The position numbers were made by a program, and so were the translations under genes. From positions 1-27,277 of the IMG/VR virus record IMGVR_UViG_3300046529_000497: DNA of 27,277 bases; one strand, given 5' to 3'. Source of the stretch: a virus. Of the stretch, positions 1,932 to 22,269 are shown in pieces. Position 1 is the first letter of the stretch. Every line of letters starts with the position of its first letter. The notes under the pieces were generated by a model. It was not told the origin of the DNA and did not search any database. It saw nothing but the letters and a program-made list of their open reading frames with translations.

Positions 1932-2288
1932 TCAGGAATCGGCCAGCGGCCGGTGAGAGATTTTGTCGTTCCAGCGCGCGGCGTCAGCGACGACGTCGAC
2001 GTTGAAACTCTTGAAGTTGCCCAGGTGCCCGGTGAAGAGGTGGCAGTTGACGCCGCCCTTGTTCGCCTCACAGAGAGTCACGAGATTGTTCGGGTCGAGC
2101 TCTAGATCCGGATGCAGATGGAAAGGCCGTATGTGATGCACTTCGAGCTTTTCCGTTCCTCCGCACACTGCGCACGTGGGGTTCAGCGTGAGGTGGTGCT
2201 TTCGGATCGTGGGCCAGTGCGACGACCGCTTCGCCGCGACCGGATGCTTGCCCTTCGCAGCATCGACGAGGTGTTTGAAGATGGGCAT
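1932..2288 (-). CDS. HNH endonuclease
   Basis: A 118-residue protein with a CxxC (C39, C42), the core HHIRP (H51-H52), then a DPNNLVTLC segment (N67-N68, C73) and a final CH (C82-H83): the beta-beta-alpha-metal HNH fold stabilised by zinc. The N-terminal MPIFKHLVDAAKGKHP stretch is typical of small phage HNH proteins. Many cos-type phages carry such a nuclease beside the terminase, where it helps genome packaging. Here it lies at the far end of the late operon among lysis genes, so it may be a packaging cofactor displaced from its usual place or a free-standing homing-type nuclease. No good Shine-Dalgarno precedes the ATG; a terminator-like hairpin ends about 10 bases upstream, so translation may be weak. 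Confidence 0.85.
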   Translation of the reverse strand: MPIFKHLVDAAKGKHPVAAKRSSHWPTIRKHHLTLNPTCAVCGGTEKLEVHHIRPFHLHPDLELDPNNLVTLCEANKGGVNCHLFTGHLGNFKSFNVDVVADAARWNDKISHRPLADS

Positions 2289-2298
2289 GTCGTAAACG

Positions 2299-2341: not shown

Positions 2342-2671
2342 TCAGCGCGCTATAACTTGCACCGGTAGCGTCCGCGAGTCGGTGCGCCCCATGCTTGTCG
2401 TAAAAGTGAAGCGGACGTTGTATGTCACGCCTGCCGTACCGCCGGATAGCCATGCGACAAGCAGGCTCGACGCGACGCCTTGACTGTTCGCGGCGATCGA
2501 CGACGAGTTGACCGTGACGCCGGTGTCCGCCGTTACTTGCAGGCCGGTGACAATCTCTCCAGAGACAAGCCACGGTTGTTGGTTGATGCCGGCGGCCGGC
2601 GCAAGGTCGAGCGCGTAATCCAACACGGCGCTCGGGTCCTTGTACTGCGTTGGAATCGCTTGCGGTTTCAT
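2342..2671 (-). CDS. Phage fibre-tail adaptor-like beta-sandwich protein
   Basis: A 109-residue protein that starts with KDPSAVLDYALDLAP, a motif familiar from small phage structural proteins in which a DPxxxLDYxxDW-type opening precedes an Ig-like domain. The rest alternates hydrophobic and Ser/Thr residues (VTGLQVTADTGVTV... YNVRFTFTTSMGRTDSRTL), as in a small beta-sandwich. It follows the repeat-rich protein by 15 bases in the same direction, so the two probably work together, for example as the attachment piece of a fibre. No ribosome-binding site is clear; translation may be coupled to the upstream gene. The exact family assignment is from memory of similar proteins and is uncertain. Confidence 0.55.
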   Translation of the reverse strand: MKPQAIPTQYKDPSAVLDYALDLAPAAGINQQPWLVSGEIVTGLQVTADTGVTVNSSSIAANSQGVASSLLVAWLSGGTAGVTYNVRFTFTTSMGRTDSRTLPVQVIAR

Positions 2672-2686
2672 GTATGGCCCAAAGGG

Positions 2687-4345
2687 TTATGCGGTGACAC
2701 ATGCCGTGCGAACATCGAGCGGCAAGACGACAGTCCGCTCGTCATCCCCGACATCGAGTTTTCGAAGCTCCGCCCCGATGGCGGCAAATCGCCTTTCACC
2801 TGCAATTCCGACGGACCGGATGTCCGAATAGATCGGCACCGTGACGGGATCGACCAGTTCGCGCGCGACGAACGCGGCCGCCGCACAAATGTTAGGCTGC
2901 TGCGTTGCCGCCGCTGCGGCGACGATCCCTTCAAGCTGAATCGCTGTCGTGCTCGCACTGGCATTCGCGGACTGAATCGCACTTCCAGACGTCGACACCA
3001 ACACTGATGCCGACGTCGACACGAGCGAAGTACTGCCCGACGTCGCGGCCGATACCATCGCGCCCACCGCCGCGGTGGCGACCGCCGCGTTCTGTTGCTG
3101 CGCGGCCGCGACAACGAAGGCCGCGATGTTGCCAATGGAAGCAGTCGTTGCGCTCGCGTTCGGCGCTTGAGTGCCGCTCGCCGAGGAAGAAACCGCGATC
3201 GCCGCGCTGGCTAACGCCGACTGCATTGACTGCGCGATCACCGCCGTCGAGCTGACCGACACCGCCGCCGCGCCAGCGGCCGCATTCGCCGCCTGCGTGA
3301 CCGCACCCACGGTTGAGACGTCCACCGCGATCGCGCTCGCGGTAGCATTCCGGGTTTGCGTTGCCAGGCCGGCCGCCGCCACCGCGACCGTAGATCCGGC
3401 CGCCGAAACGTTGTCCGCCTGCACTGATGCTGACGATGCAGATAGAGCAACGCTCGCGAGTGCCGCGCCGACGTTTTGCTGCTGATTGACGGCGCCCGAG
3501 ACAGACAGCGAGATACCCGCGGAAGATGCGCCGGCGTTCGCGCGCTGCGTGCCGGCACCCGTCGACGAGACCGTGACGGCTGCGCTGCTCGCTCCCGCGT
3601 TCAGTTGCTGTGTACCAGCCGCGCTCGACGAAAGAAGAATCGCCGCCGAGGATGCCGCGACCTGCATCTGCTGCGTACCGGCGACTGCACCGCCTACCCC
3701 GATGCTCGCCGATGCCGCCGCTGCATTCGGCTGCTGAGTTGCCGCTCCGCTCACGCTGACCGACGAGGCGCTCGCGAGATACTTGATCGCGTGAAGCATC
3801 ACGTTGAACGACGATCCGACAGTCGTCGTGATCAGAGTCTTGATCGTCAGCGTCTGCGAGGCGGAATTTGCCGCCCACGTGATCGTCGTCGAATAGAACT
3901 TCTGGTTGCCGCTTCCTGTCGTGCCTGGCGAGACGGTGTAGGCAGTCGCGCTGCCGTCTGAGAGCGTCGCGGTCAGCGTGCACGCACTCGAATACGCCGC
4001 CCAATAGATCGTCAGCGTGCGCGACGTGGTGTCGGCAGGCAGAATGATCTGAATGCCTTGGCCAGTCCCCGTCGTATTGTCGGCATAGATGCCACCAGCG
4101 AGCGCGGTGGCGGACGCAGTCGGCGTTCCGTCCGTCCAGGTGAACTTCGGGCCGTCCGTGTAACCGGTGAATGTGACGCCTGTACCGACGGTCGTCGGCA
4201 GCCCGATGGTCGATCCGCCGCCCGACTTACGATTAACTGAAGTCGCCGACTGCGGGAACTGAATCCAGTCCGTCTGCGCCGGTGACGAGAGGTTGAATGT
4301 CTCAGTACCCGCGAGGACTGTATTGGAGCCGGTGAGAGTGCCCAT
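2687..4345 (-). CDS. Repeat-rich Ala/Ser/Gln structural protein (putative fibre or stalk)
   Basis: A 552-residue protein in three parts. Residues 1-190 look like a beta-sandwich (GVTFTGYTDGPKFTWTDG, LTIYWAAYSS). Residues about 198-496 are a tandem repeat with an exact 21-residue period: Gln occurs at 204, 225, 246, 267, 288, 309, 330, 351, 372 and 393, usually with Asn three residues later, and the unit approximates AGTQQxNAxASSAAVxVSSxG. Later units are less regular (416, 458, 482). Residues 497-552 are a non-repetitive charged domain (YSDIRSVGIAGERRFAAIGAELR). The layout suggests a head, a repetitive stalk and an attachment domain. The start is supported by GGAGACTGA before the ATG. It sits between two small beta-rich phage proteins, so it is probably a virion fibre or decoration, but I do not recognise a named family. 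Confidence 0.7.
   Translation of the reverse strand: MGTLTGSNTVLAGTETFNLSSPAQTDWIQFPQSATSVNRKSGGGSTIGLPTTVGTGVTFTGYTDGPKFTWTDGTPTASATALAGGIYADNTTGTGQGIQIILPADTTSRTLTIYWAAYSSACTLTATLSDGSATAYTVSPGTTGSGNQKFYSTTITWAANSASQTLTIKTLITTTVGSSFNVMLHAIKYLASASSVSVSGAATQQPNAAAASASIGVGGAVAGTQQMQVAASSAAILLSSSAAGTQQLNAGASSAAVTVSSTGAGTQRANAGASSAGISLSVSGAVNQQQNVGAALASVALSASSASVQADNVSAAGSTVAVAAAGLATQTRNATASAIAVDVSTVGAVTQAANAAAGAAAVSVSSTAVIAQSMQSALASAAIAVSSSASGTQAPNASATTASIGNIAAFVVAAAQQQNAAVATAAVGAMVSAATSGSTSLVSTSASVLVSTSGSAIQSANASASTTAIQLEGIVAAAAATQQPNICAAAAFVARELVDPVTVPIYSDIRSVGIAGERRFAAIGAELRKLDVGDDERTVVLPLDVRTACVTA
2858..3754 (-). repeat. Degenerate 63-bp tandem coding repeat
   Basis: The segment encodes at least ten uninterrupted 21-codon units, then two to four looser units. 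The nucleotide copies are divergent, for example variants of GTTCAGTTGCTGTGTACC recurring near 3535, 3598, 3661 and 3724 on the plus strand. The period is conserved exactly while codons vary, indicating selection on the protein repeat rather than recent DNA slippage. Confidence 0.75.
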
Positions 4346-4365: not shown

Positions 4366-4785
4366 TCAGTTGCCGTTAGTTAGCGTGAAACTCGAGTCGC
4401 TCACCGTCTGACCGGTCGCGATCGACGCCGAGCCGACAAAGTTCATGTCGTAGCCGGAGCCGACGCCGCACGTGCCATCGACGTGAGCCGTGCCGCCCGA
4501 GGTCGTGATTCGGAAGAAGGTCGCCGCGGTGCCAGCGCCAGCGCCAGCCGTGCCAGTTCCGCTCGTGATGCCGTTAAGCGTGAGCACGCCCCCCGAGGGT
4601 GCAGGAGCGAACGTCGCGGCGCATGTCAGCGTCGCGAGCAGGGTCTGCGACGTGATCGCCGTATCGGGACTGGCGGGTTGCGAACCGGCGTAAATGTTGA
4701 TGAGCGCGTTTGCCCCGACCGTGGTCGTGATCGCGGCCTGCTGAGCGTTTTTCAACACCGCGCTGTATTTCAGATTCGATGCCAT
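4366..4785 (-). CDS. Conserved phage structural-type protein, function unknown
   Basis: A 139-residue protein beginning MASNLKYSAVLKNAQQAAITTTVGANALINIYAGSQPA, a pattern recurrent in phage genes near tail fibres and endolysins (an opening helix, then ...ALLxIYSGxQPA...LAxLTCNATFAPAxxGG). The body is Gly/Ala/Thr/Ser-rich and beta-like, which fits a virion component, but no enzymatic motif is visible. AGGAAAG lies just upstream of the ATG. It follows the endolysin gene by 32 bases and precedes the repeat-rich protein by 20 bases, so it appears to belong to a three-gene structural block (4785-2342) placed inside the lysis region. I cannot assign a role beyond probable virion association. Confidence 0.6.
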   Translation of the reverse strand: MASNLKYSAVLKNAQQAAITTTVGANALINIYAGSQPASPDTAITSQTLLATLTCAATFAPAPSGGVLTLNGITSGTGTAGAGAGTAATFFRITTSGGTAHVDGTCGVGSGYDMNFVGSASIATGQTVSDSSFTLTNGN

Positions 4786-21630: not shown

Positions 21631-22269
21631 TTACGAGCGCTTGCCAGATGCCTTGTTGAAGGCGCGGTCCCAGCCAGCCGATGCCTCACGCTGCGGGTTG
21701 CGTTGCACTTCTCCGCCTGCGCCGAGTTGCGGGTTGCGAGCGGAACGCTCCGGGCGATCGGCATTCGCCGAGTTGCCCGGCGTTGCCTTCAGGACGGCGA
21801 TTGCTTCTTGGCTGCTCATCGACGTGTTGAACGCGAGGCTCGCAGCGAGCGCGACGTTGCGGCCGGCTGCCTTGTGACCCATGATCGCCGCGCAGCGCGC
21901 ACGCTCGCTGAGACGTGCACGGGCGACGGCGCCCTTGCCGCGCGCTTGCTCGTTCTCTTCGTCTTCGGCGCGCTCGTCGTCTTCGTCGTCGGCTGCCTTC
22001 TTGCCTTTCTTGCCCTTGCCCGAATCGTCTTCTTCGAGCTCGTCGTCTTCAGCATCTTCGTCGTCACGCTCGTCTTCAGCGCGCTTGCCCTTCTTGCCCT
22101 TCGAGCCGTTGCTGTCACCGTCGTCGCGGTCTTGCTCTTCCTGCTCGTCGTCTTCGGCGCGCTCGTCTTCGTCGTCGCGCTGATCGTCTTCTGCACGCGC
22201 CGCGCGCGAGTTGATGCCGGCGAGATGGGCGAACGAGAGCCCGCGCGCCGCAAGGGTGCGAATACTCAT
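21631..22269 (-). CDS. Acidic low-complexity protein, probable scaffold-type capsid assembly factor
   Basis: A 212-residue protein in three parts: residues 1-24 (MSIRTLAARGLSFAHLAGINSRAARAED), a highly charged block at about 25-110 (runs of Asp, Glu and Arg, interrupted twice by Lys-rich GKKGK patches), and a folded C-terminal part (SERARCAAIMGHKAAGRNVALAASLAFNTSMSSQEAIAVLKATP). The last segment resembles sequences at the C-terminal, scaffold-like end of phage prohead proteases (an ERARI..I......R..LA..LAF.T.MS...AIA.L pattern). Lambda makes its scaffold Nu3 from the 3' part of the protease gene; here that function seems to be a separate gene, placed correctly between protease and D. The function is inferred. 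Confidence 0.65.
   Translation of the reverse strand: MSIRTLAARGLSFAHLAGINSRAARAEDDQRDDEDERAEDDEQEEQDRDDGDSNGSKGKKGKRAEDERDDEDAEDDELEEDDSGKGKKGKKAADDEDDERAEDEENEQARGKGAVARARLSERARCAAIMGHKAAGRNVALAASLAFNTSMSSQEAIAVLKATPGNSANADRPERSARNPQLGAGGEVQRNPQREASAGWDRAFNKASGKRS

Follow-up and report, generated by a model that had tools for sequence, protein, structure and literature searches.

We analysed a stretch of 27,277 nucleotides of viral DNA (IMG/VR record IMGVR_UViG_3300046529_000497), hereafter the window. It is the structural half of a phage, encoding terminase GpA, portal, capsid E, sheath and tape measure together with Mu-like baseplate proteins, a tail fibre and a GH19 endolysin, and the phage is contractile-tailed. 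On the minus strand, three genes separated by gaps of a few bases follow one another in the order bead, string (repeat) gene and adaptor, named here after the roles proposed for them:

4366-4785, minus strand: bead gene, 139 aa, garland-type (phrog_3758; PHROG E=1e-22)
2687-4345, minus strand: string (repeat) gene, 552 aa (ORF and translation)
3761-4345, minus strand: N-terminal beta domain, aa 1-195, proposed exchangeable distal tip (relatives, model, Foldseek)
3110-3739, minus strand: ten exact 21-residue units, aa 203-412 (autocorrelation z=12)
2858-3109, minus strand: about four looser units, aa 413-496 (shifted-frame motifs; lag 21 top over aa 201-500)
2690-2839, minus strand: C-terminal 9-residue Arg ladder, aa 503-552, proposed adaptor-docking tail (Arg period)
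2342-2671, minus strand: adaptor gene, 109 aa, Gp77 family (Pfam PF23148 E=4.6e-17; PDB 8jou_D E=4.6e-6)

Relatives of the string protein were found at 45 viral loci from IMG/VR and on contigs of Caballeronia zhejiangensis and Pararobbsia alpina. The order bead, string, adaptor is kept in most of 41 string-protein loci, where the contig extends far enough. An HNH endonuclease-like ORF (1932-2297, minus strand) lies just downstream of the adaptor gene. Elsewhere in the window, short imperfect DNA tandem repeats cluster at 21948-22191, inside an ORF (21631-22269, minus strand) that adjoins the capsid and protease genes.

The ten 21-residue units of the 552-aa protein run from residue 203 to residue 412 uninterrupted by any insertion. 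Gln is invariant at position 2 of the unit (residues 204, 225, 246, 267, 288, 309, 330, 351, 372 and 393), Asn occupies position 5 in eight of the ten, and position 13 is Ile or Val in all. The BLOSUM62 autocorrelation over aa 201-415 is highest at lag 21 (1.80), followed by lags 42 and 63. Composition-preserving shuffles gave a lag-21 score of 0.19 ± 0.13, hence z = 12, and across lags 3-79 none of 2000 shuffles went above 0.88. The tandem repeat noticed in the sequence-only reading is therefore real, with its ten in-frame units and its Asn three residues after each Gln in eight of them. The looser units that this reading had placed behind the ten are also present, about four in number and reaching about nt 2858. 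Mean pairwise identity between the units is 37% at the protein level and 48% at the DNA level, as expected from the claim that the nucleotide copies have diverged, and because of this divergence Tandem Repeats Finder did not report the 21-residue (63-nt) array from the window DNA. The repeats are rich in Ala, Ser and Gly. Searches of Pfam, PHROGs and PDB sequences returned no named family for the string protein, in agreement with the first impression that the repeat belongs to none, and comparison of the string or the bead with known phages gave zero matches. The protein had been taken for a phage structural protein and very probably belongs to a phage fibre.

The two neighbours of the string gene are related to components of known phage fibres. 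The bead sequence matches 9rkv_A (phmmer, E=3e-4) and 44nx (E=4e-5) in the PDB, and its model (pLDDT 82) retrieves 9rkv_A, from phage 7-7-1 tail fibers, in a Foldseek search (E=1e-5, probability 1.00, TM 0.59). The adaptor belongs to PF23148, labelled Gp77 'Podophage GP4 fiber-tail adaptor'. In the GP4 structure 8jou, a bead-like protein is present in ten chains and the adaptor in three. With hhalign, no homology was detected between the bead of the window and that of GP4 (probability 0.3%), and 8jou is absent among the 50 Foldseek matches listed for the window bead. We did not file the window system as a GP4 fibre because this homology was tested and not found; since the beads are not detectably homologous, what links the window to GP4 is the order of the genes, the adaptor and the form of the string. 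Sequence searches of the PDB, also by way of GP4-like relatives, revealed no string chain.

A viral collection was scanned with profiles of the two bead types, yielding 62 (window-type) and 67 (GP4-type) non-redundant downstream neighbours. The downstream neighbour is periodic (18-23/38-45 aa) for 31 of the 62 window-type beads and 49 of the 67 GP4-type beads, versus 0 of 58 and 5 of 74 upstream neighbours, respectively. That half of the downstream neighbours of window-type beads lack periodicity counts against a string role. The period itself differs with the bead family: 21 residues with window-type beads (28/31) and 20 with GP4-type beads (48/50). In phages BcepIL02, JC1, PBC5, Itty13, Atu_ph08 and POI1126, a GP4-type bead is followed by a protein with repeats of about 20 residues and an Arg-containing tail, then by the adaptor, and DSL-LC06 shows the same arrangement of GP4-type bead, repeats of about 20 residues and adaptor. 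Itty13 and Atu_ph08 give a periodic signal of moderate strength, BcepMigl a weak one. The tested neighbours of bead-like genes in mycobacteriophage Hocus, Venkman, Mvi-JY20, KPP25 and AP1 gave no significant repeats. In Agrobacterium phage Atu_ph08, an unannotated ORF between the bead and adaptor genes (L054:4411-4920) encodes repeats of about 20 aa and the Arg-containing tail, and is likely a string gene missed by annotation. At two loci (L187 and L203), a 20/40-aa period is found in the gene before the GP4-type bead and is absent from the gene after it; the order of string and bead may be reversed there.

The number of units varies among phages by whole 21-residue steps, as had been anticipated. 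The closest relative (L065), whose bead is 96% identical, carries exactly one extra unit, and L089 exceeds L090 by one. Repeat regions are about 245, 267-270 or 307-313 residues long, and indels between pairs amount to one unit at a time. A strict arrangement of two repeats per bead dimer is disfavoured by these single-unit shifts in length and indels.

The structure of the string protein was modelled with AlphaFold as a monomer. The N-terminal domain is modelled acceptably (pLDDT mostly 50-88) and is up to 92% conserved in relatives. In a Foldseek search with the full string model, which yielded weak matches only and was not retained as a fold identification, mainly this domain was matched, to the carbohydrate-binding modules CBM35, CBM6 and CBM61 (E 1e-3 to 3e-2). 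In relatives with the same bead clade, it is swapped for a Gly-rich domain (PF21722). The last 50 or so residues (about aa 503-552), which the sequence-only reading had described as a charged C-terminal domain, are themselves periodic: an Arg recurs at 9-residue intervals, both in the window and in relatives. Between these domains, the first repeats show weak alternating strands, two per unit, at pLDDT 40-56. The score falls to 20-35 in the later repeats, and almost nothing is modelled beyond residue 325. Such low confidence would be expected of a chain that becomes ordered only on a partner, and equally of a disordered or plain linker.

The self-standing solenoid or trimeric shaft proposed at first is unsupported by this monomer model. 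An autonomous fold of this kind, with one rung per 21-residue repeat and the bead located elsewhere in the virion, would agree with the exact period and with the two weak strands per unit, and trimeric shafts often fold only as trimers while our model is monomeric. Yet pLDDT stays between 20 and 56 over the repeats, and such a fold leaves unexplained why the repeat sequence tracks the bead gene and why the period differs with the bead family. We regard it as improbable. We think it very unlikely that the repeats are a flexible low-complexity linker joining an adhesin to an adaptor with no specific partners: their Ala/Ser/Gly-rich composition and the poor model confidence are what a linker would show, but a linker does not call for a strict period across ten units, an invariant Gln, indels of whole units or a repeat type tied to the bead type.

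This tie was quantified on 24 cassettes. With the N-terminal domain partialled out, the similarity of the repeats can be predicted from how identical the beads are (partial Mantel 0.70, p=0.0005, an optimistic value because the test treats related phages as independent). Among pairs whose N-terminal domains are at least 75% identical, bead identity below 50% goes with unrelated repeats (median z 1.9), and at bead identities of 75% or more the repeats are close relatives (median z 53). Where the Gly-rich N-terminal domain accompanies a bead of the window clade, the repeats are still related (z 6.4-137), versus z 0.2-4.4 with a bead of another clade. The other end of the protein follows the adaptor. 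The Arg-ladder tail co-occurs with the adaptor gene (30/31 versus 4/94, Fisher p = 2e-23), and the two also covary in sequence (partial 0.54-0.58, p = 0.0005), these two p-values being optimistic for the same reason. Mere genomic hitch-hiking of neighbouring genes whose products do not touch, which the few-base gaps and the clear recombination of the cassettes might suggest, is a most improbable cause, because on the DNA the bead gene and the repeats are separated by the N-terminal domain, which fails to follow them, and the homologous beads of phage Milano had already been inferred to need a string.

We consider it probable, given the gene order, the covariation with the bead gene and the structures of related phages, that the 552-aa product serves as the string in a bead-chain fibre: its repeats would bind the bead, its tail would dock onto the adaptor, and it would carry an exchangeable tip. 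Each 21-residue unit would be a putative binding site, stretched out over the small garland-type dimeric bead whose gene lies just upstream, and the number of units would thereby set the number of beads and the length of the fibre. By our own arithmetic, 20-21 extended residues at 3.3 angstroms per residue span about 66-70 angstroms, and one such unit could cross one small dimer, by analogy with the extended chain of phage A511. The 9-residue Arg ladder would dock the string onto the gp77-type adaptor encoded just downstream and thus attach it to the virion, and the N-terminal beta domain would form an exchangeable, probably glycan-binding tip. The fibre is most likely flexible, with a host-binding tip. 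The repeat, the cassette, the families of bead and adaptor, both covariations, the whole-unit indels and the change of period with the bead family are results of the analysis; the physical binding of bead and string, their orientation, a stoichiometry in which each unit serves a dimer and not a subunit, the function of the tip and the place of the fibre on the virion are inferred.

The bead-chain fibre proposed here is best compared with the garland of contractile-tailed phages. The tail fibres of Agrobacterium phage 7-7-1 are mapped in 9RKV (PMC12796354), where four chains belong to the 141-aa 'structural protein' matched by the window bead. In the 7-7-1 genome, this protein is encoded directly behind a putative tail fibre of 587 aa. 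The homodimeric garland protein around the 7-7-1 baseplate is gp014, numbered beside the long tail fibre gp015, of 587 residues (PMC12796354); judging from gene order and length, the 141-aa protein can be equated with gp014. In phage Milano, gp125 occupies the same place as gp014 and was named garland protein, and the garland dimers seem to form a filament of beads on a string, the identity of the string being unclear to the authors, who draw a comparison with A511, in which every dimer is crossed by an extended chain (PMC10811340). The garland beads (gp014; gp125/gp127) are homologous to that of the window (phmmer E=3e-4; Foldseek E=1e-5), and these phages share with it the contractile tail and, as proposed for the window, a chain of dimers needing a string. 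In the window, unlike in the garland phages, the gene directly after that of the bead is the string gene, whose product has both a tip domain and an Arg-ladder tail. Phage 7-7-1 encodes 21-aa repeat proteins close to its bead: 000108 (L063:9860-10882, 340 aa) and, in its C-terminal part, 000109 (L063:10876-12303, 475 aa) have lag 21 as their strongest signal, unmatched in 300 shuffles, with a YPxY motif, and an APMADA motif at exact 21-aa spacing. Both are candidates, on sequence grounds, for the missing garland string.

A second comparison is with fibres of the GP4 type. The fibre of the Ralstonia podophage GP4 (8jou) is made up of bead dimers, a gp77 adaptor and a rope protein, the last reportedly described by Zheng et al. 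in 2023. The window shares the gp77-family adaptor with the GP4 fibre 8jou (PF23148 E=4.6e-17; 8jou_D E=4.6e-6), and it shares with GP4-like Burkholderia and rhizobial phages the order bead, string, adaptor, a repeat string and an Arg-containing tail. In contrast, GP4-like strings have a period of 20 instead of 21 and no large N-terminal tip domain, and GP4 is short-tailed whereas the phage of the window is contractile-tailed. By its bead the window fibre belongs with the garland, by its adaptor with GP4, and it works like both. Alishewanella phage LSH1 has a module of three genes of similar make-up (gp34-gp36), encoding an adhesin, a GP4-fibril-like dimer and an Ig-like protein, and the C-terminal region of this adhesin could not be modelled by AlphaFold (PMC13243795); unlike the window string, the adhesin has a lyase-like beta helix. 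The neck fibre gp82-gp81-gp80 of Anabaena phage A-1(L) is likewise built as a chain of beads and works in a similar way, having an anchor as well as a carbohydrate-binding module at its distal end (PMC10966104). It was set aside as a homologue and kept as an analogy only, since its beads are trimers that join head to tail with no string protein. In the window, a repeat gene sits between the bead and adaptor genes.

More broadly, such strings may constitute a widespread genetic ruler, in which the crossed dimer would set the period (20 or 21 residues) with one dimer per repeat, in unrelated bead families and with exchangeable tips; we hold this generalization to be evenly balanced between true and false. 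Bead-chain fibres and garlands are known from several phage structures. The proposal of a string addresses a gap left in the Milano study, namely what serves as the string of the beads (PMC10811340), and it bears on the poorly modelled C-terminal region of the LSH1 adhesin, for which the authors gave no explanation (PMC13243795). The combined signature of a 20- or 21-residue period beside a bead gene and an Arg-ladder tail beside a gp77-type adaptor makes strings findable in raw sequence, including those that annotation has left out. How the number of repeats relates to that of the beads and to the length of the fibre becomes directly testable, and the ruler proposal, if true, would point to the missing garland string of 7-7-1 and Milano.
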